The notes under the pieces are model-generated. The model saw only the letters and a list, made by a program, of their open reading frames with translations, was not told where the DNA came from and ran no database searches. This document shows positions 33,280-52,805 of a stretch of DNA of 64,000 bases, one piece after another. Both the position numbers and the translations under genes were made by a program. Location of the stretch: positions 558,001-622,000 of the forward strand of contig NZ_CP031423.1 in assembly GCF_003991875.1 (NCBI RefSeq), given 5' to 3'. The stretch's first letter is position 1; each line of letters begins with the position of its first letter. Source of the stretch: Microbacterium lemovicicum. Its GTDB lineage: Bacteria > Actinomycetota > Actinomycetes > Actinomycetales > Microbacteriaceae.

Positions 33280-34575
33280 TCACGCGGCAGGCAGGGCGGG
33301 CAGCGCCGTCTCGTCGAGCCACGGGCGCAGAAGATCGCGTGCGGCCGCGCCCGCCCGCTCCGCGACCAGGCCGGTGAAGTCTGCCGTCCTGACCGTGCGG
33401 CCGCGCCCGGCATCGGTCCAGGCGCGCAGGAGGGCGAAGAACGCATCGTCGCCGATGGTCAGGCGCAGCGCGTGCAGGGTGAGCGCGCCGCGCTTGTAGA
33501 CGCGGTCGTCGAACATCAGCTCGGGCCCGGGGTCGGCGAGCAGGAGGTCCTGCGGCAGCCGGCGCAGGCGGGCGTGGTGGGCCGTGGCCTCGGCGTGGGC
33601 GGATGGACCGCCGGAGCGCTCCGACCAGAGCCACTCGGCATAGCAGGCGAAGCCCTCGTTCAGCCAGATGTCGCGCCACAGCGCCAGGCCCACGCTGTTG
33701 CCGAACCACTGGTGGGCCAGCTCGTGGGCGATGAGGCGCTCGAGACCGCCGAAGCCGTCGATGTGGTTCGAGCCGAAGATGCCCATGCCCTGCGCCTCGA
33801 GGGGGATCTCGAGATCGTCGGCGGTCACGACCACCGCGTACGCCGGCGAGGGGTAGGGGCCGAAGACCTCCTGATACAGGGCCATCATGCGACCGAGGTC
33901 GGAGAAGTCTGCGTGCACCCGCGACGCCGCGGGGCGGGGGTAGTGCAGCTCGCCGCGCACGCCGTCGAGGTCGAGCGTCTCGGTGACGTAATGCCCCATC
34001 TGCACGGTCACCAGGTACGTCGGCGTCGGGGTCACCCACTCGAACACCCACGCGCGCCGGCCCCGCACGGTGGCCACCTCGACCAGGGGACCGGCGGCGA
34101 CGTCGTAGCCGGGGTCGGTCGTGAACGACAGCCGGTAGGTCGCCTTGTCGGACGGCACGTCGTTGCAGGGGAACCAGGTCGGGGCGCCCGTGGGCTGCGA
34201 GGCGACGATCAGGCCGTCCTCGAGCTCCTCCCACCCGAGGGTGCCCCAGCGCGTGCGGCGCGGCCGGGGTGCGCCGCCGTAGGCGATCTCGAGGTCGAAC
34301 CCCTCACCCGCCCGGAGCGGCCGCGAGGGCTTGACCTTCACCTTGCGGTCGCTCTGCGTGAATCCGGCGCGCGGGTCGCCCCCGAGGCGGACCTTCGTCG
34401 CCCGCAGCCCGACGAGGTCGAAGGACAGGGCGGCGGTGTCGCTCACCACCGTGCCGGAGATGCGGGCGGTTCCCGACAGCCGGTTCGTCGCGATCTTGTA
34501 GTCGAGCTGCAGGTCGTAATGCGACACCGACACCGCGGCATCCCCGCTCTGCGGCGTGTACGCGTCGACGGTCAT
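33280..34575 (-). CDS. M1-family zinc aminopeptidase
   Basis: This 431-residue protein has the gluzincin motif LIAHELAHQWFGNSVGLALWRDIWLNEGFACYAEWL, with all three zinc ligands (HExxH and the distal Glu of NEGFA). The GAMEN position reads EAQGMGIFG, which is atypical. It lacks the long C-terminal helical domain of PepN and has no signal peptide. Its ATG overlaps the stop of the Pls-type synthetase gene (ATGA), so the two are coupled. In epsilon-poly-lysine producers an aminopeptidase degrades the polymer and protects the host. By position this one may do the same for the local product; that is inferred. Confidence 0.88.
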   Translation of the reverse strand: MTVDAYTPQSGDAAVSVSHYDLQLDYKIATNRLSGTARISGTVVSDTAALSFDLVGLRATKVRLGGDPRAGFTQSDRKVKVKPSRPLRAGEGFDLEIAYGGAPRPRRTRWGTLGWEELEDGLIVASQPTGAPTWFPCNDVPSDKATYRLSFTTDPGYDVAAGPLVEVATVRGRRAWVFEWVTPTPTYLVTVQMGHYVTETLDLDGVRGELHYPRPAASRVHADFSDLGRMMALYQEVFGPYPSPAYAVVVTADDLEIPLEAQGMGIFGSNHIDGFGGLERLIAHELAHQWFGNSVGLALWRDIWLNEGFACYAEWLWSERSGGPSAHAEATAHHARLRRLPQDLLLADPGPELMFDDRVYKRGALTLHALRLTIGDDAFFALLRAWTDAGRGRTVRTADFTGLVAERAGAAARDLLRPWLDETALPALPAA

Positions 34576-37500
34576 GCGTCGGCGGCCTGATAGGCGCGGA
34601 CCTTCACCACCCGCCAGGGACCGATCGGGTTGCCGCTCCAGCGGCTTCCCACCGGCACGTCCTCGCCGCGCATGACGAGCGACGCCGGGCCCACCGTCGC
34701 GTCGGCGCCGATGGTCGCAGCGGGCAGGACCACGCTGTGGGGGCCGAGGGTCGCACCCGGTCCGAGGGTCACGGTGTCGATGCTCATCACTCGATCATGG
34801 AACAGATGCGTCTGCACCACGCACCCGCGGTTCACCGTGGCGCCGTCGCCCAGGGTGACGAGGTCGGGTTCGGGGAGCCAGTAGCTGTCGGTCCAGACGC
34901 CTCGGCCGATCTTCGCGCCGAGCGAGCGCAGCCACATCGCCAGCGCCGGCGTGCCTGCGGCGGAGTTCGCGAACCAGGGCGCGGCGAGCATCTCGGTGAA
35001 GGTGTCGGCAACCTCGGTGCGCCACACGAACGACGACCAGAGCGGATGCTCGCCGGGGCGGATCACGCCCACGAACGTCCACTTCGCGAGGGTGGTGATC
35101 GCCGCGGCGACGGCTCCCGCCAGGAGCAGCACGGACCCCGACAGCACCGCCGCGACGAGCGGACCCCACTGCTCGCTGAGCCAGCCGAGCGTGAGGAGCA
35201 CGGCGAGCCCGAGGGCGCAGGTCACCACGACGGGGATCAGCCGGCACAGCTCCCACAGGGTGCGGGCGACCCGGAGGCGGCGGGCGGGCCGGTAGGTGCG
35301 GTCGAGGTCGGCGTCGTTCACGACGCGGCGGAGGCGCACGGCCGGCGAGCCGAGCCACGACGACCCGGGCTTCGACTTCTCCGGAGCCACCGACAGCACG
35401 GCGACCAGGCCGTCGCGCGGCACGCGGTGCCCGGGGCCGGCCATGCCGGAGTTGCCGAGGAACGCGCGCTTGCCGATGCGCGCCGGTCCGATGCGCATGC
35501 GTCCGTGGCGGAGCGCGTAGGTGGCCACCATGGTGTCGTCCGCGAGGAAGGCGCCGTCGTCCACGGTGGTCATGGAGGGGATGAGGAGCACCGTGGATGC
35601 TTCGACATCGCGTCCGACGGTGGCGCCCAGCATCCGGAGCCAGACGGGGGTGAAGAGACTCGAGTAGATCGGGAAGAGGGTGGTTCGGGCGGCGTCGAGG
35701 ATGCGCTCGGTCGTCCAGGCCTGCCAGGCGATGCGGCCGCGCACGGGGTGGTCGCCCTCGACGAGCCCGATGGCGAGGAGCCGCACGGCCAGCACTACGA
35801 CGCCGGCGAAGACCACGCCCGCCACGAGCACCGCCGGCACGAGCCAGGCCAGGAGCGCCGGGATCGCGTCGGCGATCGAGTCCGCACCGCGCATGCCCGC
35901 GGCCAGCACCAGCCCGCCGGCGGAGAAGGCCGCGAGGGGGAGGAGCGCGAGCGCGGTGGAGGACGCCGCGTACGCCCACAGCCAGCGGCGGCGGACGGGC
36001 GGGCGCGGGAGGTCGTCCGGAGTCGCCGACCCCACGCGGACGGCGGGGGAGCCGGCCCACTGCTGGCCGGCGCGCACGCGACCGAACACCGCGGAGCCGG
36101 GGGCGATCTCGGCGCCGCGGCCGATCTTGGTGCCGGGCGCGAGCGTGCTGCGCGAGCCGATGGTGGCGCCTGCGCCGATGCGGATGCCCCCGATGCGGAC
36201 CGTGTCGCCGTCGATCCAGGAGCCGGTGAGGTCGACCTCGGGCTCGATGGCGGCGCCCGATCCGACCTCGAGCATGCCGGTCACGGGCGGGAGGGTGTGC
36301 AGGTCGACGTCGCGGCCGATCTTCGCGCCGAGCGCCCGCGCGTAGTACGTGACCCAGGGGGCGCCGGCCATGCCGACGGGGTCGATCTGCCCGGCGACCT
36401 GCTCCGCGAGCCAGAGGCGGAGGTGCACGCCGCCGCCGCGCCGGTAGTCGCCGGGGCGCACGCCGGCCAGCAGGAGCCGGGCGGCGCCGGCCGACAGCGC
36501 CATGCGGCCCAGCGGCGTCGCGAACACGAGGAGCCCCGCGACGATGACCCACAGCGGTGCGTCCGGGAGGAAGGCGAAGCCGGGCACCAGCTGGAGGATC
36601 CAGCTCGCCGTCAGCAGCCAGAGCAGCCAGCGGATGCCGCTCAGCACGAACAGCGGCACACCGGCCACGGTCTGCACCCACTGCATGATGCGCGGAGTGG
36701 GGGAGGCGCTGGTGAAGACGGCGGGCTCGCCGTCGTCCTCCGCGGACTCCGCCTCGACGGCCTCGGCCATCTTCGCCAGCCGCGGCAGGTCGTAGACGTC
36801 GGCCATCGTGAACTCGGGCGCACGGGTGCGGATGCGCGATACGAGCTGCGCCGCGGCGAGGGACCCGCCGCCGAGCTGGAAGAAGTCGGCGTCCAGGCCG
36901 CCTGGCCGGATGCCGAGCACCGCGCCCCACTGCTCGGCCAGCCACGCGGCGGTGCCGGAGAGCTGACCGTCCTCGCCGTCCCCGTCGGTGAGAGGCCAGG
37001 GAAGAGCCGCCTTGTCGACCTTGCCCGAGGTGCGCACGGGCAGGTCGTCCACCGTCGCCAGAAGGGGGATGAGGGGTGCGGGAAGAGTCTCCGCCAGCTC
37101 GGCGCGCGCCCGGCCGCGGTCGAAGCCCGCATCGGGGACGACGTAGCCGACGAGCAGCGCGACCCCGGCCGCGGAGCGCTGCACGACGACGGTGGCGGCC
37201 GAGACGTCGCTGAGCGACTGCAGGGCCGCCTCGACCTCGCCCAGCTCGATGCGCCGACCGCCGATCTTGACCTGGTCGTCGGCGCGGCCCTGGAAGACCA
37301 GACCGGCCGCCTCTGCGCGAACGAGATCGCCGGAGCGGTAGGCGCGGTCCCAGCCGAGAGTCGGGAAGGGGGCGTACTTCTCGGCGTCCTTCGCGGGATC
37401 GAGGTAACGGGCAAGGCCCACCCCGCCGATGATGAGCTCTCCGACCGCGCCCTCGGCCACCGGCATCCCGTCGCCGTCGACGACCGCCAGCGCCCAGCCG

Positions 37501-38525
37501 TCCAGCGGCAGGCCGATGCGCACCGGCGCCGTGCCGTCCATCAGCGCCGCGCAGGCCACGACCGTCGCCTCGGTGGGGCCGTACGTGTTCCAGACCTCGC
37601 GGTCGTCGCCGATGAGCCGCGCCGACAGCTCGGGCGGCAGCGCCTCGCCGCCGAAGATCAGCAGGCGGATGTTCTCGATCGCGTCCTGCGGCCAGAGGGC
37701 CGCGAGGGTCGGCACGGTCGAGACGACGCTGATGCTGTGGCCGACCAGCCAGGGGCCGAGGTCTTCACCGGAGCGGACGAGCGCGCGGGGCGCGGGCACG
37801 AGGCACGCCCCGGATCGCCACGCCAGCCACATCTCCTCGCACGAGGCGTCGAACGCCACCGAGAGTCCGGCCAGCACGCGGTCTCCCGGGCCGAGCGGCG
37901 CGCCGCGCAGGAAGAGGCGCGCCTCCGCGTCGACGAACGCCGCCGCCGAGCGGTGCGAGACGGCGACGCCCTTGGGCACCCCGGTCGAACCCGAGGTGAA
38001 GATGATCCACGCGTCGTCCTCGACCGTGGGCGGCGGCACGATGAGCGTCGCGCTCGACGAGGGGTGGGGCGCATCGCCGGCGAAGAGCGCGCCGGCGTCG
38101 CCGGCGGACGGCGCCGACTCCGCGGAGGGCGTGAAGACGCCGCGGGCGCCGATGACCCCGCGGACGTGCGCCTCGCCGAAGACGAGGTCGGCGCGCTCCT
38201 GCGGATCGTCGGCGTCCACCGGCACGTAGGCGGCGCCGGCCGCGAGGATGCCGAGGATCGCCACGTAGAGCGCTCGGTCGCCCGACGGCATGCGCACGCC
38301 GACCCGGTCGCCGCGCACGACCCCGTGCTCGTGCAGGCGCGCGGCCGTGCGCCACACCTGCGCCAGCAGCTCCGCGTAGCTGAGCGCGCCGTCGGCGTCC
38401 TCGAGCGCGGACGCCTCGGGATGCCGTGCCGCGGTGTCGCGGAGGATGTCGATCAGCGTGCGCGGTGGGGGCGCGACGGACGTGCGGTCGAACGCCTCGG
38501 TGGTCGGCGGGCTCGCCATGTCCAC
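34572..38525 (-). CDS. Pls/PosA-family membrane nonribosomal peptide synthetase
   Basis: This 1317-residue protein has the Pls architecture. An adenylation domain covers about 25-510, with FTSGSTGVPKG near 175, AFDASCEEMWLAW, NTYGPTEATV and YRSGDL. A carrier domain at about 530-600 has FFQLGGGSLAAAQLV with Ser555. Six or so membrane helices follow from about 620. Interleaved with them are three tandem left-handed-helix/C-like units, for example IRIGAGATIGSRSTLAPGTKI near 785 and VTLGPGATLGPHSVVLP near 1270. Such enzymes polymerise a single basic amino acid (lysine, diaminobutyrate, ornithine) by isopeptide or peptide bonds. No thioesterase is present, as expected. The start is GTG with GAGAGG seven bases upstream. 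The amino acid cannot be assigned with confidence. Confidence 0.92.
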   Translation of the reverse strand: MDMASPPTTEAFDRTSVAPPPRTLIDILRDTAARHPEASALEDADGALSYAELLAQVWRTAARLHEHGVVRGDRVGVRMPSGDRALYVAILGILAAGAAYVPVDADDPQERADLVFGEAHVRGVIGARGVFTPSAESAPSAGDAGALFAGDAPHPSSSATLIVPPPTVEDDAWIIFTSGSTGVPKGVAVSHRSAAAFVDAEARLFLRGAPLGPGDRVLAGLSVAFDASCEEMWLAWRSGACLVPAPRALVRSGEDLGPWLVGHSISVVSTVPTLAALWPQDAIENIRLLIFGGEALPPELSARLIGDDREVWNTYGPTEATVVACAALMDGTAPVRIGLPLDGWALAVVDGDGMPVAEGAVGELIIGGVGLARYLDPAKDAEKYAPFPTLGWDRAYRSGDLVRAEAAGLVFQGRADDQVKIGGRRIELGEVEAALQSLSDVSAATVVVQRSAAGVALLVGYVVPDAGFDRGRARAELAETLPAPLIPLLATVDDLPVRTSGKVDKAALPWPLTDGDGEDGQLSGTAAWLAEQWGAVLGIRPGGLDADFFQLGGGSLAAAQLVSRIRTRAPEFTMADVYDLPRLAKMAEAVEAESAEDDGEPAVFTSASPTPRIMQWVQTVAGVPLFVLSGIRWLLWLLTASWILQLVPGFAFLPDAPLWVIVAGLLVFATPLGRMALSAGAARLLLAGVRPGDYRRGGGVHLRLWLAEQVAGQIDPVGMAGAPWVTYYARALGAKIGRDVDLHTLPPVTGMLEVGSGAAIEPEVDLTGSWIDGDTVRIGGIRIGAGATIGSRSTLAPGTKIGRGAEIAPGSAVFGRVRAGQQWAGSPAVRVGSATPDDLPRPPVRRRWLWAYAASSTALALLPLAAFSAGGLVLAAGMRGADSIADAIPALLAWLVPAVLVAGVVFAGVVVLAVRLLAIGLVEGDHPVRGRIAWQAWTTERILDAARTTLFPIYSSLFTPVWLRMLGATVGRDVEASTVLLIPSMTTVDDGAFLADDTMVATYALRHGRMRIGPARIGKRAFLGNSGMAGPGHRVPRDGLVAVLSVAPEKSKPGSSWLGSPAVRLRRVVNDADLDRTYRPARRLRVARTLWELCRLIPVVVTCALGLAVLLTLGWLSEQWGPLVAAVLSGSVLLLAGAVAAAITTLAKWTFVGVIRPGEHPLWSSFVWRTEVADTFTEMLAAPWFANSAAGTPALAMWLRSLGAKIGRGVWTDSYWLPEPDLVTLGDGATVNRGCVVQTHLFHDRVMSIDTVTLGPGATLGPHSVVLPAATIGADATVGPASLVMRGEDVPVGSRWSGNPIGPWRVVKVRAYQAADA

Positions 38526-46422: not shown

Positions 46423-46449
46423 GGCCGTGGGTCAGATGGACCCACGGCC
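46423..46449 (-). terminator. Terminator of the minus-strand tRNA-like RNA
   Basis: GGCCGTGGGTC, loop of five, GACCCACGGCC: an 11-base perfect stem. Read on the minus strand it is followed by TTCCTCTTTGTCC and begins two bases after the encoded CCA of the tRNA-like gene. On the plus strand the trailing bases are G-rich, so it is best suited to the minus-strand transcript, although it may also stop the permease transcript. Confidence 0.75.
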
Positions 46450-46451
46450 GG

Positions 46452-46505
46452 TGGTGGAGGACTCAGGAATCGCACCTGACGGGGCGCCTCATGTGCGCAT
46501 CCCCC
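46452..46505 (-). ncRNA. 54-nt tRNA-Ala-like mini-RNA (acceptor stem plus T-arm, no D-arm or normal anticodon arm)
   Basis: Read on the minus strand, GGGGGAT (46505-46499) pairs with GTCCTCC (46462-46456) to give a 7-base acceptor stem with a G3-U70 wobble. A73 and an encoded CCA (46455-46452) follow. The T-arm is TCAGG-TGCGATT-CCTGA (46479-46463), a perfect 5-base stem with a 7-base loop that differs from the standard TTCGATT by one base (T55 to G). The 19 bases between form one short hairpin (GCGC-ACATGAG-GCGC) plus CCCG, so the D-arm and a usable anticodon arm are absent. G3-U70 and A73 are the known identity determinants for alanyl-tRNA synthetase, and the adjacent divergent gene encodes a truncated one. 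A promoter (46516-46544) and terminator (46423-46449) bracket it. Aminoacylation is inferred. Confidence 0.75.
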
Positions 46506-46515
46506 GAGATCACTC

Positions 46516-46544
46516 ACTATAGCCAGGCCCGGAATGGTAGACAA
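46516..46544 (-). promoter_or_regulatory. Promoter of the tRNA-like RNA
   Basis: On the minus strand TTGTCT (46544-46539) and TATAGT (46521-46516) are separated by exactly 17 bases, a near-consensus housekeeping promoter. Transcription should start a few bases before the mature G1 at 46505, leaving a short leader. Confidence 0.75.
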
Positions 46545-46601
46545 GTCGCGGGAGGAGGCACGTCGAGACCCACCCGCCGGGGGTCTGCGTGTCCTACACA
46601 C

Positions 46602-47999
46602 ATGAACGCTGACGAGATCCGCCGCGCCTACCTCGACTTCATGACCGAACGCGGTCACGTGATCATCCCGCGCTCGCCCCTCGTTCCGAAGGACGACCCC
46701 ACGACGCTCTTCACGGGGAGCGGCATGCAGCCGCTCCTTCCGTACCTGCTGGGGGCGCAGCATCCGGCCGGCACGAGGCTCGCCGACAGCCAGACCTGCC
46801 TCCGCGTGCAGGACATCGAGGAGGTCGGCGACAACCGGCACACCACCTTCTTCGAGATGCTCGGCAACTGGAGCCTGGGCGACTACTTCAAGCAGGAGCA
46901 GATCCCGCAGGTGTGGACGTTCCTGACGGCCAAGGTCGGCCTCGATCCCGACCGCATCTACGTGTCGTGCTTCAGCGGCGACCCGAAGAACGACATCCCG
47001 AAGGACGAGGAGTCGGCGCAGCTGTGGACGGGCTTGTTCCAGGAGGCGGGCGTCTCCTCCGACCAGGTCGACGTGGGGACCGAGGAGCACGCCGCCGCCG
47101 TCGGCACCGGCGGTGCGCGCATCGCCTTCTACGGCAAGAAGAACTGGTGGTGCCGCGGGGGGAAGGCGGAGGACATGCCCGTCGGCGAGCCCGGCGGCCC
47201 CGACACGGAGATCTTCTACCTGTTCCCGACCGTCGAGCACGATCCGACGTTCGGCGAGCACTGCCACCAGAACTGCGACTGCGGACGCTTCATCGAGCTG
47301 GGCAACTCGGTGTTCATGGAGTACCGCCGCACCGAGACGGGCTTCGAGCCCCTGCCGAAGAAGAACGTCGACTACGGCGGCGGACTGGCGCGTATCGCGG
47401 CCGCGGCGATCGACAGCCCCGATGTGTTCCGCATCGGGCTGCTGTGGCCGATCATCGAGCGCCTGCAGGAGCTGTCCGGTCGCAGCTATGAGGACGAGAC
47501 CGTGAGCATGCGCGTCATCGCGGATCACCTGCGCGGCGCGACCTTCCTCGCGGTCGACGGGGTGATGCCGGGCAACAAGGCGCAGGGGTACGTCATGCGC
47601 CGCCTGCTGCGCCGGGCCATCCGCTTCGCCTTCGACCTCGGACTCGAGGAGAACTTCTTCCCGCAGATCATCCCCACCATCGCGGAGATCTACGAGGCGC
47701 ACTATCCCGAGGTGGGGGAGCACGCCGAGTACGTCGAGAAGGTGCTGGTGAAGGAGGAGCAGGCCTTCCGCCGCACGCTCCGGAAGGGGCTGAAGCAGCT
47801 GCGCGCGTATCGCGGCACCACGGTGACCGGCGCCGAGCTCTTCGTGCTCTACGACACCTACGGCTTCCCCGTCGAGCTCTCCACCGAGGAGGCGGGCCGT
47901 CAGGGGATCGTGGTCAGCGAGACGTGGCGCGACGAGTTCGACGAGCACATGACCGCCCAGCGCGAGCGCTCGCAGCGCTCCACCACCCTGCACGTCTGA
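46602..47999 (+). CDS. Alanyl-tRNA synthetase paralogue lacking editing and C-terminal domains
   Basis: This 465-residue protein covers only the aminoacylation and tRNA-recognition modules of AlaRS (a full-length enzyme is about 875). It has MNADEIRRAYLDFMTERGH, DDPTTLFTGSGMQPL, HTTFFEMLGNWSLGDYF, VDYGGGLARIAA and RVIADHLRGATFLAVDGVMPGNKAQGYVMRRLLRRAIR, and then LYDTYGFP. The Asn after MPG and the Asp of LYDTYGFP correspond to the residues that read G3-U70 in the E. coli enzyme. A Cys/His-rich insert, EHCHQNCDCGRF, is unlike the E. coli protein and may bind zinc. Editing and C-Ala domains are missing. ATG 46602 has no close ribosome-binding site; GGAGGAGG is 44 bases upstream with a hairpin (46566-46586) between. 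It is divergent from the mini-RNA and probably charges it. Confidence 0.88.
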   Translation: MNADEIRRAYLDFMTERGHVIIPRSPLVPKDDPTTLFTGSGMQPLLPYLLGAQHPAGTRLADSQTCLRVQDIEEVGDNRHTTFFEMLGNWSLGDYFKQEQIPQVWTFLTAKVGLDPDRIYVSCFSGDPKNDIPKDEESAQLWTGLFQEAGVSSDQVDVGTEEHAAAVGTGGARIAFYGKKNWWCRGGKAEDMPVGEPGGPDTEIFYLFPTVEHDPTFGEHCHQNCDCGRFIELGNSVFMEYRRTETGFEPLPKKNVDYGGGLARIAAAAIDSPDVFRIGLLWPIIERLQELSGRSYEDETVSMRVIADHLRGATFLAVDGVMPGNKAQGYVMRRLLRRAIRFAFDLGLEENFFPQIIPTIAEIYEAHYPEVGEHAEYVEKVLVKEEQAFRRTLRKGLKQLRAYRGTTVTGAELFVLYDTYGFPVELSTEEAGRQGIVVSETWRDEFDEHMTAQRERSQRSTTLHV

Positions 48000-48101: not shown

Positions 48102-48131
48102 GGAGGAAAAAAGTTCGACCTCCTATGGAGG
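48102..48131 (+). promoter_or_regulatory. oleA leader: hairpin competing with the ribosome-binding site
   Basis: GGAGG at 48102-48106 can pair with CCTCC at 48119-48123, which lies four bases before a second GGAGG at 48127-48131. The second GGAGG is five bases before TTG 48137 and is the likely ribosome-binding site. The first GGAGG could keep CCTCC from masking the second. The regulatory effect is a suggestion only. Confidence 0.35.
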
Positions 48132-48136
48132 ATCGC

Positions 48137-49159
48137 TTGCCCGGTAATGCTGTTTCCCGTTTCCAGAACGTCGCGCTGTTGTCGGTGGCGAGCGTTCTGC
48201 CCAGTCGGGTGACCACCTCGGATGACATCGAGGGTCGCCTCGGCCCCTCCTTGGCACGCCTCAAATTGCGCAGCGGCCTCCTCAAACGCGTCGCCGGCGT
48301 GCTCGAGCGACGCAACTGGGGTCCGGGAGAGTCGGCCGACAAGGCCACCATCGCGGCAGGGAAGCGCGCGCTGGACGAGGCCGGCGTCGACGCGTCGCAG
48401 GTGGGCCTGCTCATCAACACGTCCGTGACGCGCATGCATCTCGAGCCGTCGGTCGCCGTCGCGCTGCATCACGGGCTCGGGCTGCCCAGCTCCGCGGTGA
48501 ACTTCGACGTCGCGAACGCGTGCCTCGGCTTCATCAACGGGATGTCGCTCGCGGCCACGATGATCGAGTCCGGCCAGATCGACTACGCCATGGTCGTGGC
48601 CGGCGAGGACGCGGACGACATCCAGGTCAACACCATCGAGAGACTCCTCCGCTCCGAGTCCGACCGCGACGGGTTCATGAGCGAGTTCGCCTCGCTCACC
48701 CTGGGCTCGGGGTCCGCCGCAGCCGTGCTCGGCCGGGCCGACGCGCACCCCGAGGGTCACCGCATCCTCGGCGGCGTCACCCGCGCGGCCACGAACTTCC
48801 ACACCCTCTGCGTCGGCAGCGTCGACGGCATGTTCACCGACGCGAAGGCGCTGCTCAAGGGCGGGCTCGACCTCGTGGTCTCGGCGTGGAAGGAGGCGTC
48901 GGCGGAGTGGGACTGGAAGTCGATGAACCGCTACATCACGCACCAGGTCTCGTCGATCCACACCGACGCCATCGTCAAGGCCGTGCACCTCGACCGATCG
49001 AAGGTGCCGACGACCTACCCCCGCTACGGCAATGTCGGTCCGGCCTCCGTGCCGATCACGCTCGCGCAGGAGCAGGACAGCCTGCGTCAGGGCGACCGGG
49101 TGCTGCTCATGGGCGTCGGGTCGGGCCTGAACACCGCCATGATGGAGCTCGCTTGGTGA
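48137..49159 (+). CDS. oleA: OleA, acyl-CoA head-to-head condensing thiolase
   Basis: This 340-residue thiolase-superfamily enzyme (KASIII-like) has catalytic Cys129 in NFDVANACLGFINGM, His in RYITHQVSS and Asn in YPRYGNVGPASVPITLA. OleA joins two fatty acyl-CoA molecules head to head to give a 2-alkyl-3-ketoacid. The neighbours encode the remaining Ole enzymes in order, which separates it from FabH. I prefer TTG 48137 (GGAGG five bases upstream, protein MPGNAVSRFQN); ATG 48125 would place that GGAGG inside the gene. Its stop overlaps the next start (GTGA). Confidence 0.9.
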   Translation: MPGNAVSRFQNVALLSVASVLPSRVTTSDDIEGRLGPSLARLKLRSGLLKRVAGVLERRNWGPGESADKATIAAGKRALDEAGVDASQVGLLINTSVTRMHLEPSVAVALHHGLGLPSSAVNFDVANACLGFINGMSLAATMIESGQIDYAMVVAGEDADDIQVNTIERLLRSESDRDGFMSEFASLTLGSGSAAAVLGRADAHPEGHRILGGVTRAATNFHTLCVGSVDGMFTDAKALLKGGLDLVVSAWKEASAEWDWKSMNRYITHQVSSIHTDAIVKAVHLDRSKVPTTYPRYGNVGPASVPITLAQEQDSLRQGDRVLLMGVGSGLNTAMMELAW

Positions 49160-51834
49160 ACGACGCGACGCGGACGATCGCGGCCCTGCCCGGCATCGAC
49201 GTCCGCGTCAGTCGGACGAGGCTGGTGCCGGAGCGCGACTCCGGAGCGGTGCACGAGTGGCACTACCTCGACACCGGCGCCGAGCTCGAGCGCCGGGGCG
49301 TGCCCGTCGCGGGCACGATCCTCGCCGTCCACGGCAATCCGACCTGGTCGTACCTCTGGCGCGGCATCGTCTCCGCCTCGCTGCGGGCCGCCGAGGCGGG
49401 GCGACCCGCCTGGCGGGTCATCGCCGTCGACCAGCTCGAGATGGGGTTCTCCGCGCGCACCGGCGTCGCCCGCCCGCTCGCGCGCCGAGTCGCCGACCTG
49501 GGCGACCTCACCGCCGATCTGGGGCTCACCGGGCCCGTCGTGACCCTCGCCCACGACTGGGGCGGACCGATCTCCCTCGGCTGGGCCGTGGATCACCCCG
49601 AGCTGCTCGCGGGGGTCATCGCGCTGAACACCGCCGTGCACCACCCTGACGGCGTGCCCATCCCCGCTCCCCTCCGCCTCGCCGGCGCCCGCGGGGTGCT
49701 CGCCAACGGCACCGTCCGCACGACGGCGTTCCTCGACACGACCCTCGCCCTGGGACACCCGGCGCTCGCGCCGGAGGTCAAGGACGCCTTCCGTGCGCCC
49801 TACCGCACGGCGGCACGCCGCACCGGGATCGGGGCGTTCGTCGCCGACATCCCCGTCGATGCGACGCACGGAAGTCACGCCGAGCTCCGGCGCATCTCCT
49901 CGGGCGTCGCCGCCCTCGACGTGCCGGCGCTGTTCCTGTGGGGACCCGCGGACCCGATCTTCGGCGACCGGTACCTCGACGACCTGATCGATCGGATGCC
50001 GCGCGCCGACGTGCACCGATTCGAGGGCTCAGGGCACCTGATCGCCGAGGACCGGCCCTACGCGGACGCCGTCCTCGCCTGGCTCGACGACAACGCGGCC
50101 CGGCTGACGGGGGCGGCACGCGGATCGTCCGCGGGGGAGGCGGCGGAGCAGACCCCGGTCGCCGACGCCGTCGCCGCCGCACGCGACGCGGCGACGTTCG
50201 CACCGCTGTGGGCGGCGCTCGACGCCCGTCGCGACGACGACGGCGTCGCGGTCATCGACATGTCCGCGCGGGCCGGGCGCCCCGCGCGCGTGAGCTGGCG
50301 CCGGCTGGACGACCGCGTACGGAACCTGGCCGCGGGCCTCCGCCGCATCGGCGTGCAGAAGGGCCAGCGCGTCTCGGTGCTCGTCCCGCCCGGACCCACG
50401 CTCACGGCCGTCATCTACGCCTGCCTGCGCATCGGCGCGATCGTCGTCGTGGCCGACGCGGGACTCGGCGTGCGCGGGCTGTCGCGCGCGGTGCGCGGGT
50501 CGTGGCCCGACGTCGTCATCGGGGAGCTGCCCGGGCTGACGGCCGCCCGCGTGCTGGGCTGGCCCGGCATCCGCATCTCCGTCCCGCGCCTCCCGAAGAT
50601 CTCCGCGGCGGCCCTGGGCGTATCCCACGACCTCGCCGGCGTCGCCGCCCTCGGCGCGACCGCGCCGCTGCCGGCGGAGCCCGCGCCCGACGACTCCGCC
50701 GCGATCCTCTTCACCTCCGGCTCCACCGGGCCGGCGAAGGGCGTGGCGTACACGCACCGGCAGCTGTCGGCGCTCCGCGACATCCTCTCCGCGCACTTCG
50801 GCGTGACGGCCGACACCGGCCTCGTGACGGGCTTCGCGCCGTTCGCCCTCCTCGGCCCCGCACTCGGCACCCGCTCGGCCACGCCCGACATGGACGTCTC
50901 CGCGCCCCGCACCCTCACCGCCGCCGCGGTGGCGGCCGCCGTGCGGGCCTCCGATGCGCGCATGGTCTTCCTCTCGCCGGCGGCGATCCTCAACGTCGTC
51001 GCCACCGCGGACGCCCTCACGGCCGACGACCGCGCCGCCCTGGCGACGGTGCAGACGTTCCTCTCGACCGGCGCGCCCGTCGGCGAGCCGCTGCTGGCCG
51101 CCGCGGCCGCGCTCATGCCCGGGGCCGAGCCGCACACGCCGTACGGCATGACGGAGGGCCTCCTCGTCACCGACCTCACGCTCGCCGACATCCGGGGAGT
51201 GTCGGATGCCGCGGACCGCGGTGTCTGCGTCGGACGCGCGATCGAGGGCAACATCGTGCTGATCGACCCGCTCGACGACGACGGCCGCCCCGGCGGTTCG
51301 CCCGGCTCGGCGGCGGGGGTGCTCGGCGAGGTCGTCATCTCCGCCCCGCACCTCAAGACGTCCTACGACCGGCTGTGGCTGACGGACCGCACCGCGGGTG
51401 CCCAGGTGCCCGCGGAGGGCCGCTGGCACCGCACGGGCGACGTCGGCCATCTGGACGCCGACCGGCGGCTGTGGATCGAGGGCCGCCTGCCCCACGTGCT
51501 GACGATGACGGACGGCCCCGTCGCACCGGTCGGGCCCGAACAGCAGATCGAGACCGTGCCGGCCGTGCGCCGCGCCGCGGTCGTCGGCATCGGGCCGCAC
51601 CGGCTGCGTCAGGCGGTGGCCGTCGTGGAGACGACCCCGCCCGCCGGGCGCCCTGCGCTGGCCGGACCCGAGGTCACCGCGGCCGTGCGCAGCGCGACCG
51701 ACCTCCCGCTGGCCGCGGTGCTCGTGGTGCCGGAGCTGCCGACCGACATCCGCCACAACTCCAAGATCGACCGCACGCGACTGTCGGCGTGGGCCGAGGG
51801 CGTGCTCTCGGGCGGACGGACGGCGCGGCCGTGA
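49156..51834 (+). CDS. oleBC: Fused OleB beta-lactone decarboxylase and OleC beta-lactone synthetase
   Basis: This 892-residue protein joins two enzymes. Residues about 1-310 are an alpha/beta-hydrolase of the haloalkane-dehalogenase type (AVHGNPTWSYLWRG, nucleophile Asp in LAHDWGGPISLGW, His in GSGHLIAED), which is OleB. Residues about 350-890 are an AMP-forming synthetase (ILFTSGSTGPAKGVAYTHRQ, PYGMTEG, TGDVGHLD, terminal Lys in IRHNSKIDRTRL), which is OleC. OleC closes the beta-hydroxy acid to a beta-lactone and OleB decarboxylates it to a cis-olefin. The fusion is known from actinobacteria. It starts at GTG 49156, overlapping oleA, and its last base is shared with the oleD ATG. Confidence 0.93.
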   Translation: MNDATRTIAALPGIDVRVSRTRLVPERDSGAVHEWHYLDTGAELERRGVPVAGTILAVHGNPTWSYLWRGIVSASLRAAEAGRPAWRVIAVDQLEMGFSARTGVARPLARRVADLGDLTADLGLTGPVVTLAHDWGGPISLGWAVDHPELLAGVIALNTAVHHPDGVPIPAPLRLAGARGVLANGTVRTTAFLDTTLALGHPALAPEVKDAFRAPYRTAARRTGIGAFVADIPVDATHGSHAELRRISSGVAALDVPALFLWGPADPIFGDRYLDDLIDRMPRADVHRFEGSGHLIAEDRPYADAVLAWLDDNAARLTGAARGSSAGEAAEQTPVADAVAAARDAATFAPLWAALDARRDDDGVAVIDMSARAGRPARVSWRRLDDRVRNLAAGLRRIGVQKGQRVSVLVPPGPTLTAVIYACLRIGAIVVVADAGLGVRGLSRAVRGSWPDVVIGELPGLTAARVLGWPGIRISVPRLPKISAAALGVSHDLAGVAALGATAPLPAEPAPDDSAAILFTSGSTGPAKGVAYTHRQLSALRDILSAHFGVTADTGLVTGFAPFALLGPALGTRSATPDMDVSAPRTLTAAAVAAAVRASDARMVFLSPAAILNVVATADALTADDRAALATVQTFLSTGAPVGEPLLAAAAALMPGAEPHTPYGMTEGLLVTDLTLADIRGVSDAADRGVCVGRAIEGNIVLIDPLDDDGRPGGSPGSAAGVLGEVVISAPHLKTSYDRLWLTDRTAGAQVPAEGRWHRTGDVGHLDADRRLWIEGRLPHVLTMTDGPVAPVGPEQQIETVPAVRRAAVVGIGPHRLRQAVAVVETTPPAGRPALAGPEVTAAVRSATDLPLAAVLVVPELPTDIRHNSKIDRTRLSAWAEGVLSGGRTARP

Positions 51835-52805
51835 TGGTCACCGTCACCGGCGCCTCCGGCTACCTGGGGCGCGCCGTCGCGGCGGAGCTGATCGCCGCCG
51901 GTCACGAGGTGCGCACGCTGCAGCGCCGCCCGAGCACCGTCGCCGGCGCCACGGACGTGCTCGGCTCGATCGACGACCCCGCCGTCGTGGCGCGGGCCCT
52001 GGACGGCGCCGAGGGCGTCGTCCACCTCGCGGCGAAGGTATCCCTCGCCGGCGACCCGGCCGAGTTCCGCACCGTCAACGTCGAGGGCACGAGACGGCTC
52101 CTCGATGAGGCCGGCCGAGCCGGGGCATCCCGTTTCGTGCAGGTCTCCTCGCCGTCGGTCGCCCACGCGGGCGCCTCGCTCGCCGGCGTCGGGGCGGATC
52201 CGGCGTCTCCGGCCGACGCCCGCGGCGAGTACGCCCGCACGAAGGCCGAAGCGGAGCTCCTCGCCCTCGCCCGCGACTCGGCCGCCCTGCACGTCGTCGC
52301 CGTCCGCCCCCATCTCGTGTGGGGACCGGGCGACACCCAGCTCGTCGGCCGCATCGTCGACCGCGCGCGTCGCGGGCGTCTGCCCCTCCTCGACGGCGGT
52401 CGCGCCCTCATCGACTCCACCTACATCGACAACGCCGCGACCGGCATCGCGGCGGCGCTGCATCAGGCCCCGGCCGTGCACGGGCGGGCGTTCGTCATCA
52501 CGAACGGCGAGCCGCGACCCGTCGGCGAACTGCTGGCCGGAATCTGCCTCGCCTCGGGCGTGCGCCCGCCGTCGTGGAGCGTCCCCGCGGGGGTGGCGCG
52601 GGCGGCCGGCTCGCTGATCGAGCGCGCGTGGGCGCTGCGCCCGGGCGCAGACGAGCCGCCGATGACGCGGTTCCTGGCAGAGCAGCTCTCCACCGCGCAC
52701 TGGTTCGACCAGCGCGAGACGCGCGCGGCGCTGCAGTGGGCTCCGGCCGTGTCGATCGACGAGGGTCTGCGACGCCTCGCGAGCCACGCCGCGGCGGGCC
52801 GCTAG
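51834..52805 (+). CDS. oleD: OleD, NAD(P)H-dependent 2-alkyl-3-ketoacid reductase
   Basis: This 323-residue extended SDR has the N-terminal nucleotide-binding motif VTGASGYLGRAVAAEL, a catalytic Ser in VQVSSPSVAH and YARTK as the YxxxK pair. RPHLVWGPGD and ALIDSTYIDNAATGIAAAL are family segments of 3-beta-HSD-like reductases. It reduces the OleA product to the 2-alkyl-3-hydroxyacid, the step between OleA and OleC. The ATG overlaps the oleBC stop by one base (TGATG), and GTG 51831 is also possible. It closes the ole operon. Confidence 0.92.
   Translation: MVTVTGASGYLGRAVAAELIAAGHEVRTLQRRPSTVAGATDVLGSIDDPAVVARALDGAEGVVHLAAKVSLAGDPAEFRTVNVEGTRRLLDEAGRAGASRFVQVSSPSVAHAGASLAGVGADPASPADARGEYARTKAEAELLALARDSAALHVVAVRPHLVWGPGDTQLVGRIVDRARRGRLPLLDGGRALIDSTYIDNAATGIAAALHQAPAVHGRAFVITNGEPRPVGELLAGICLASGVRPPSWSVPAGVARAAGSLIERAWALRPGADEPPMTRFLAEQLSTAHWFDQRETRAALQWAPAVSIDEGLRRLASHAAAGR

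Follow-up and report, generated by a model that had tools for sequence, protein, structure and literature searches.

An anticodon-less tRNA-Ala-like RNA of actinobacteria and its putative role in lipid alanylation

We describe a 54-base RNA that resembles the transfer RNA (tRNA) for alanine without an anticodon arm, encoded in a stretch of 64,000 nucleotides of Microbacterium lemovicicum (contig NZ_CP031423.1, positions 558,001 to 622,000 of the forward strand; this whole stretch is called the window), together with the divergent gene of a short alanyl-tRNA synthetase (AlaRS). The fold of this mini-RNA is conserved and its alanine identity elements are invariant, a promoter and a terminator are present at the window copy, and the RNA repeatedly occurs in the company of genes for the short AlaRS, an MprF-type lipid aminoacyltransferase and an esterase. 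We consider it likely that the mini-RNA is a dedicated anticodon-less tRNA-Ala which is charged by AlaRS and feeds the MprF-type transferase in the making of an alanylated membrane lipid.

The mini-RNA and its conservation

The RNA is encoded on the minus strand at 46505..46452 and reads GGGGGATGCGCACATGAGGCGCCCCGTCAGGTGCGATTCCTGAGTCCTCCACCA. Its acceptor stem has seven pairs, including G3-U70 and, at pair 7, U-G, and is followed by A73 and an encoded CCA; the interior consists of a 4-pair hairpin, a 4-base linker and a 5-pair T-arm, with no anticodon arm. A first-pass annotation, made from the letters of the window, had pointed out the 7-pair acceptor stem with G3-U70, A73, the encoded CCA and the T-stem, all of which are present in 46505..46452, as well as a promoter (TTGTCT-N17-TATAGT) and a terminator two bases 3' of the RNA, both of which we found where shuffled sequences lead one to expect 0.0 and 0.1 occurrences, respectively. 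The window copy lies between a sigma-70-type promoter and an intrinsic terminator, and is probably its own transcript. The features of the locus are listed below, where R1 is a covariance model built from seven copies of the RNA, that of the window included.

46539..46544, minus strand: -35 hexamer TTGTCT of the mini-RNA promoter (9/12 consensus matches, spacer 17; shuffles expect 0.0)
46516..46521, minus strand: -10 hexamer TATAGT of the same promoter, part of TTGTCT-N17-TATAGT (46544..46516)
46452..46505, minus strand: tRNA-Ala-like mini-RNA, 54 nt (R1 E = 2.5e-14, the copy being among the 7 used to build R1)
46499..46505, minus strand: 5' strand of the acceptor stem, GGGGGAT, with G3 at 46503 (pairs 1-6 the same in 30/30 distinct sequences)
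46484..46498, minus strand: D-arm-like hairpin GCGC-ACATGAG-GCGC (3/4 stem pairs doubly changed among relatives)
46463..46479, minus strand: T-arm TCAGG-TGCGATT-CCTGA (4/5 stem pairs doubly changed among relatives)
46452..46462, minus strand: 3' strand of the acceptor stem, GTCCTCC (U70 at 46458), discriminator A and CCA (U70 in 30/30 distinct sequences; A73 in 43/43 copies)
46423..46449, minus strand: intrinsic terminator with an 11-pair stem, beginning two bases 3' of the mini-RNA (shuffles expect 0.1)
46602..47999, plus strand: short AlaRS, 465 aa, divergent from the mini-RNA (ATG at 46602; PF01411 positions 1-431 of 552)

At the site of the mini-RNA, ARAGORN reported no tRNA or transfer-messenger RNA (tmRNA), and no Rfam family matched there, either in a search of the window at gathering scores or in one of 161 bases at E up to 10; neither a match to tmRNA models nor a tag reading frame was found by the same two tools. 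The window copy is absent from the 45 RF00005 matches of its genome and lacks the anticodon arm of a canonical tRNA. Normal tRNA-Ala with the anticodons UGC, CGC and GGC were present among the 20 fetched stretches of these 45 matches, and because the genome holds these three, the small RNA is dispensable for decoding. When an encoded CCA was required in a scan of the window, the mini-RNA was the only match with a score of 14, the runner-up having 13. Its folding energy is unremarkable (z of -0.6 for the window copy, and from -0.2 to -2.3 across the seven copies folded, in three of which the proposed fold is not the minimum); the energies alone being uninformative, the case rests on the comparison between genomes.

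An exact pattern derived from the first relatives matched 2 of 299 family genomes and 3 of 394 class genomes, which are overlapping samples, and the reversed pattern matched none in the same genomes. R1 found matches in 8 of 12 chosen genomes. With stricter filters, it detected the RNA in 16 of the 381 genomes searched from the G510 family and in 16 of the 297 from the window's order. Altogether, the searches yielded 43 copies of 54-56 nt with 30 distinct sequences in 36 actinobacterial genomes, G801 being counted as the same genome as Williamsia soli G681, with which it shares contigs and coordinates. A structural rule (a 7-pair stem with G3-U70, A73, a 5-pair T-stem and the T-loop TnCnA) was applied to 331 kb overall: it gave nine matches, all of them known copies, in the 201,663 bases of 10 copy-bearing loci, missing L087 for a T-stem mismatch, and none in the 129,542 bases of 11 loci without a copy. 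No plasmid matched a 56-nt copy of the mini-RNA, and 19 matches of a looser pattern in viral contigs were rejected as background, scoring at most 29.2 bits with R1 as against at least 53 for the 43 accepted copies.

The alignments speak for a conserved structure. Aligned with MAFFT, the first seven copies (six distinct) have 99.0% of their cells paired, with changes on both sides of five pairs; in the alignment of all 43 copies, which was fitted to the model structure, 99.8% of 480 cells pair and seven pairs change on both sides, namely three of the four hairpin pairs and four of the five T-stem pairs. The 42 double-change cells observed were reached by none of 500 shuffles, and most of the pairing is lost when the partners are shifted against each other. 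Kinship inflates such counts; yet there are two groups of sequences that share almost no T-stem sequence, and the stem is paired in both. Six acceptor pairs, G3-U70 among them, are unchanged in the 30 distinct sequences, and A73 is kept in all 43 copies, so that the alanine acceptor elements G3-U70 and A73 are present throughout, whereas CCA is encoded in 28 copies and not in the other 15. Acceptor stem (7 pairs) and T-arm (5 pairs, 7-base loop) are those of a canonical tRNA, except for an 8-base T-loop in L148 and the T-stem mismatch of L087. The covariance check that the first-pass annotation had called for came out as it foresaw in the T-stem and in the invariant G3-U70; compensatory changes are present in the hairpin as well, and acceptor pairs 1-6 do not vary at all. 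By these comparisons, the mini-RNA is conserved and is not a chance structure.

The same annotation had proposed that one hairpin replaces both the D-arm and the anticodon arm. As to the anticodon arm this holds, the linker from the hairpin to the T-stem being 4-5 bases in 43/43 copies, with no room taken by such an arm; as to the D-arm it probably does not, since the hairpin stem GCGC/GCGC is identical to the D-stem of tRNA-Ala CGC and GGC of the same genome, and the hairpin is probably a retained D-arm. The G at T55 had been explained by the loss of its D-loop partner, an idea that gives way to another one: the hairpin loop ends in GG in 38 of the 43 copies, all with the T-loop TTC, and in AG in the other 5, all with TGC. 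The would-be 19-56 pair (column 19 G, column 36 C) is G-C in 30/30 distinct sequences, and columns 18 and 35 hold G-U in 25 of these and a non-standard A with G in 5. This coupling would fit a D-loop/T-loop contact that has changed and has not been lost, the elbow contact being kept in altered form, and it perhaps reflects a single event, because the change is found only in sequences of the window's own family. The mini-RNA may accordingly be described as a putative tRNA without an anticodon arm, not as a bare minihelix. At T-stem pair 51-63, every one of the 30 distinct mini-RNAs has A-U or U-A, where the genome's three tRNA-Ala have, by eye, G-C.

Some further observations concern the copies of the RNA and their surroundings. 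Two copies are present in 7 of the 16 RNA-bearing genomes of the G510 family, several of which have one copy among the linked genes described below and one without partners nearby (two-copy loci: L192, with copies 3.6 kb apart, L180/L181, L187/L188, L151/L156 and L195/L197); in G929 and G847, one of the two copies has no encoded CCA. A -10 box lies near the RNA in 8 of 41 distinct upstream sequences as against 10% in shuffles, a weak test in which many leaders look longer. In Williamsia soli and genomes of the same genus (L151 upstream of 7471, L156 upstream of 8584, L185 and L188), the short leader before the RNA seemingly forms a small hairpin of its own, which differs in sequence between genomes, and by eye it ends in GA or AA, as if cut by RNase P.

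The linked genes and the short synthetase

In 19 genomes, the RNA lies within about 12 kb of genes for a short AlaRS, an MprF-type lipid aminoacyltransferase and an esterase, in six gene orders. Two of these are RNA-esterase-MprF facing AlaRS and esterase-MprF-RNA facing AlaRS; a third is AlaRS-RNA-esterase with a divergent MprF; in the fourth, AlaRS and the RNA diverge from MprF-esterase (G847); and further distinct arrangements occur in G929 and G608. In the sample of 381 genomes of the G510 family, where MprF and AlaRS were scored in the RNA-bearing genomes, 15 of these 16 have all three genes in the stretch around an RNA copy (in G799, the stretch ends inside the AlaRS gene), while the sixteenth, G801, was taken as Williamsia soli (L156), which has all three. 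The same set is found in both Pseudonocardia genomes and in G608, of the window's genus. AlaRS, MprF (PF09924) and the esterase (PF00756) are the only genes that recur in more than two of the 12 neighbourhoods compared first. A company that is rearranged and yet repeated speaks for a shared function.

In Williamsia, the neighbours match PF09924 with E = 1.4e-74 and PF00756 with E = 6.8e-15, and the MprF carries an LPG_synthase_C domain and scores below the NCBIfam cut-offs for full-length MprF and for LysX. AlaRS and MprF are separate genes in the 19 linked genomes, not a fusion of the LysX type. In a tree of MprF sequences, which has no support values and few RNA-free genomes, the linked MprFs form one group, which also takes in a single MprF from each of five RNA-bearing genomes: G000 (that of the window), G274, G194, G674 and G684. 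Partial versions of the arrangement also occur: the esterase directly follows AlaRS in G674, of the window's genus; in G274, the esterase is beside the RNA and the short AlaRS is elsewhere; and in G194 only AlaRS and the RNA adjoin, as in the window. Of the two PF09924 genes in the genome of the window, the one at C1:33833-35818 joins the RNA-linked group and the other, at about 870 kb and followed by an esterase, falls outside it. Both Pseudonocardia genomes have a second MprF located elsewhere (L012/L154 and L015/L155) that groups with the RNA-linked ones.

The AlaRS of the window consists of the class II catalytic and tRNA-recognition parts, including the residues for G3:U70 (N325 and D418), and ends at residue 465, where the editing domain of its relatives would start. 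The editing and C-Ala domains are missing, as the first-pass annotation had said of an enzyme of 465 residues; the match to PF01411 covers 1-431 of 552, and the protein scores below the NCBIfam alaS cut-offs. In an alignment, N325 and D418 correspond to N303 and D400 of the E. coli enzyme. A separate, longer AlaRS with an open frame of 908 aa is encoded in the same genome, with 42% identity to the short one. Among 21 short AlaRS of 463-494 residues, the N is kept in 17 and the D in 19.

The nearest full-length relatives of the short AlaRS are the AlaRS of Saccharibacteria and their kin, with about 60-66% identity. In our trees, the 21 short AlaRS fall in two places within the Saccharibacteria-type group, and a single clade was rejected with an approximately unbiased (AU) p = 0.0015 on a quick tree, in a test made after the tree was seen. 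Both places hold RNA-bearing genomes, G274 and Subtercola in one, and the window's genome with the genomes of the linked set in the other. These two places suggest repeated recruitment and truncation, and the short AlaRS, which is of the Saccharibacteria type, was probably acquired at least twice. Saccharibacteria live on actinobacteria, which offers a possible route of transfer. With a limit of E = 1, R1 detected no RNA in the 12 loci that surround AlaRS genes of Saccharibacteria and their kin. Plasmid (144 records) and phage (31) matches to the short AlaRS stay below 60% identity, the best among the matches listed being 41.6% and 41.0%.

Proposed function and alternative explanations

The steps that we infer, from transcription to the exclusion of the charged RNA from translation, would run as follows. 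The mini-RNA would be made as its own transcript, with CCA added where it is not encoded. AlaRS recognises the acceptor stem of its tRNA through G3-U70, and charging with alanine would proceed via G3-U70 and A73, the enzyme being the short, editing-free AlaRS in genomes that have it and the ordinary AlaRS in the rest. The charged RNA would then be the donor for the MprF-type aminoacyltransferase, giving alanyl-phosphatidylglycerol or alanyl-diacylglycerol, and the linked esterase would probably take the alanine off again, as aminoacyl-phosphatidylglycerol (PG) hydrolases do elsewhere. Because the RNA has no anticodon arm, it could not decode when charged, which would keep lipid alanine apart from translation and leave an editing domain unneeded. 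Going one step beyond this, we lean towards seeing in these RNAs a natural class of tRNA without an anticodon arm that carries alanine outside translation only; the RNA would be the most constant part of the system, to which an editing-free AlaRS derived from Saccharibacteria was added at least twice, with MprF and the esterase coupled to it as a rearrangeable module for lipid alanylation.

A number of observations weigh against a role in lipid alanylation. No MprF or esterase of the linked kinds was found in the window (558001-622000), and the MprF of the linked group is far off in the same genome, at G000:C1:33833-35818. The best solved relatives of the linked MprF include both Lys- and Ala-PG synthases. 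Four short AlaRS lack the N and two of these also the D, all of them from genomes with the linked set (G510, G847, G919 and G929); since these residues are missing there, recognition of G3:U70 may differ in these four. Twelve RNA-bearing genomes, all of one family (f2), have no short AlaRS, as seen directly for G584 and, for the others, by a cut at E 1e-110 in a 297-genome sample taken to be the same as the order sample searched with R1. Their RNA has no AlaRS, MprF or esterase nearby and adjoins a gene for a GlnR-type regulator (12/12 loci by similarity; Pfam on one), and the MprFs placed from f2, one from each of 11 genomes, three of which have a second copy as well, all fall outside the linked group. 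Among RNA-bearing genomes, G1119 has no PF09924 match. By score, 12 of 262 genomes have an MprF of the linked type; three of them are RNA-positive (G000, G608 and G194), eight are RNA-negative and one, G1122, is not listed in the RNA search, a thirteenth match (G300) being partial; the MprF therefore does not depend on the RNA. Finally, short AlaRS without a detectable RNA are found in G679 and G680 (Rhodococcus), G685 (Brachybacterium), G686 (Brevibacterium), G142, G1064 and G1159, and neither G685 nor G686 has any PF09924. R1 gave no copy at E up to 1 in seven loci around these AlaRS, and its sub-threshold matches in L020 (E 1.2) and L255 (E 3.5) have neither the proper fold nor the score.

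PF09924 is present in 35 of the 36 RNA-bearing genomes and in 7 of 14 control genomes, and its presence says little by itself because the domain is common. A short AlaRS is present in each of the four RNA-bearing genomes of the order sample that are not of f2; since all four share one family, they do not count as four independent events. RNA, AlaRS and MprF are, in these genomes, separable parts that are often found together. The first-pass annotation had described the RNA and the AlaRS as a natural pair of minihelix and enzyme; their linkage is borne out and the RNA stays conserved beside homologues of the short AlaRS in the 19 linked genomes, with no full tRNA spanning the window site (ARAGORN, Rfam), whereas an obligate pairing is not, given the 12 f2 genomes that have the RNA and no short AlaRS and the others that have the short AlaRS and no detectable RNA.

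Some side observations were made at the loci where the parts occur alone. At those of f2 (L088, L199, L201, L202, L204-L209, L211 and L212), a gene for a protein of about 320 residues lies on the other side of the RNA in 10 of the 12, and a polyphosphate kinase gene or its end is inside the stretch, again in 10 of 12. Among the loci of RNA-less short AlaRS (L003, L004, L020, L021, L255 and L256), those of Brachybacterium (L020) and Brevibacterium (L021) have the gene together with ribonucleotide reductase and FMN reductase genes, and L020 is also beside transposase genes.

Three other explanations were weighed. The alanine charged onto the RNA could be destined for something other than lipid (a peptide, a small molecule or peptidoglycan) and be passed on by some other transferase, with the linkage to MprF being secondary. 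This would suit the copies of f2 and the second copies of several genomes, which have no AlaRS, MprF or esterase nearby, as well as G1119, which has no MprF match, and G685 and G686, with their short AlaRS and no MprF; however, the transferase that recurs beside the RNA is MprF, with the esterase, in 19 genomes and six orders, and no other gene occurs in more than two of the first 12 neighbourhoods (the neighbours of second copies were compared by grouping only), and we regard this explanation as rather improbable. Alternatively, the RNA could have a regulatory role, binding AlaRS as a decoy or sensor and tuning the alanine supply or the expression of its neighbours, charging being a side effect. 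Twelve genomes have the RNA without a short AlaRS, often as a unit of its own, as a regulator might be; nevertheless, the varying order and strand of the neighbours argue against control in cis, and the 15 of 43 copies without an encoded CCA keep A73, as one would predict for tRNA genes whose CCA is added later, which leaves regulation a slim chance. Under the third explanation, the RNA would be a relic, whether an internally deleted tRNA-Ala gene, a tmRNA fragment or a structure formed by chance. This draws on the likeness of the acceptor-stem top and hairpin stem to tRNA-Ala of the same genome and on the weak folding z-scores, but is very hard to maintain: two stems show compensatory changes, the acceptor stem is preserved in several families, the linkage recurs, the structural rule has no background match, and neither Rfam nor ARAGORN gives a match to tRNA or tmRNA. 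The first-pass annotation had left the choice between a non-ribosomal and a regulatory use; the former is supported, the MprF and esterase neighbours suggesting a consumer that it had not named, and the latter corresponds to the second of these three explanations.

Known systems and significance

The surrounding pathway is a variant of the LysX or Ala-PG synthase kind, since lipid aminoacylation with a dedicated synthetase is already known. Passages on LysX describe a paralogous class II synthetase that actinobacteria devote to the aminoacylation of lipids (PMC2922099, PMC10580965, PMC9437257), and the first of these sources also speaks of paralogous synthetases that serve MprF-like enzymes (PMC2922099). 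The system described here is like LysX in having such a paralogue, putatively dedicated to lipids, and unlike it in that LysX is an MprF fused to a lysyl-tRNA synthetase paralogue, while here a truncated AlaRS is separate and is joined by a special RNA, of which the passages on LysX make no mention.

AlaDAGS and Ala-PG synthase systems draw on aminoacyl-tRNA of ordinary size, and differ in this from the shortened RNA that is the putative donor here; they are similar in their MprF-type transfer to lipid and in the aminoacyl-PG hydrolases known from such systems, although alanine specificity is putative in our case. MprF-type transfer of alanine to lipid is described for AlaDAGS of Corynebacterium glutamicum in parts of PMC10580965, and a title cited there concerns a periplasmic aminoacyl-PG hydrolase of P. 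aeruginosa. In Agrobacterium, the Lys-PG hydrolase gene acvB is in an operon with the synthase gene lpiA (PMC13197417). That MprF1 accepts a minihelix-Ala is stated in a passage of PMC4052509.

The tRNA-like domain of tmRNA is an alanine acceptor with G3-U70 and a T-arm and without an anticodon arm, in a molecule of several hundred bases with a tag reading frame and pseudoknots; unlike it, the mini-RNA is a 54-nt unit between promoter and terminator and has no tmRNA match. The non-proteinogenic tRNA-Gly of S. aureus are full-length; as they do, the mini-RNA has a (putative) non-ribosomal use and an altered pair 51-63, and unlike them it lacks the anticodon arm itself. In these tRNA-Gly of Staphylococcus aureus, which escape EF-Tu, elements for its binding are lost at T-stem pairs 49-65 and 51-63, as given in part of PMC9976931; pair 51-63 is thereby one of the grounds for the predicted exclusion of the mini-RNA from translation. 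The short AlaRS resembles the mini-AlaRS of Tupanvirus, also a natural enzyme without editing and C-Ala domains, which in passages of PMC10036535 charges acceptor-stem RNA and is specific for G3:U70 without the two recognition residues. Amino acid:carrier protein ligases, the sole AlaRS paralogue in a table of duplicated synthetases (PMC9437257), load carrier proteins; unlike them, the AlaRS studied here keeps its tRNA-recognition part. Within the open PMC literature, at the level of titles, beginnings of abstracts and some passages, nothing was found on a stand-alone anticodon-less bacterial tRNA or on an MprF-linked RNA, and as far as we have seen, a free-standing bacterial tRNA without an anticodon arm is new.

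Two other regions of the window may be mentioned. After AlaRS, at 48125-52805, a beta-ketoacyl-acyl carrier protein synthase III gene (PRK09258) is followed by a long frame resembling a hydrolase and an AMP-ligase and by an NAD-epimerase-like frame; with the first gene assigned by a search and the other frames by how they read, this looks like an ole olefin-synthesis cluster. On the minus strand, at 34572-38525, a frame of 1317 residues has, by eye, an adenylation and a carrier domain followed by membrane segments and hexapeptide repeats, a layout as in poly-amino-acid synthetases, again by eye.

Synthetic minihelices have long been used in studies of the origin of tRNA and of the acceptor-stem code (as a passage of PMC4033280 recounts), and living cells appear to keep an RNA that is close to such a minihelix, with a minimal synthetase to match. 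The RNA-AlaRS pair could also be put to use as an orthogonal charging system that exists already. A passage of PMC9976931 regards the means by which MprF enzymes draw aminoacyl-tRNAs away from translation as an open question; if the reading of the mini-RNA as a lipid-alanine donor is true, an RNA that does not decode would be a direct answer to it in one bacterial group. Our results suggest that some actinobacteria supply their cell membrane with alanine by a route of its own.

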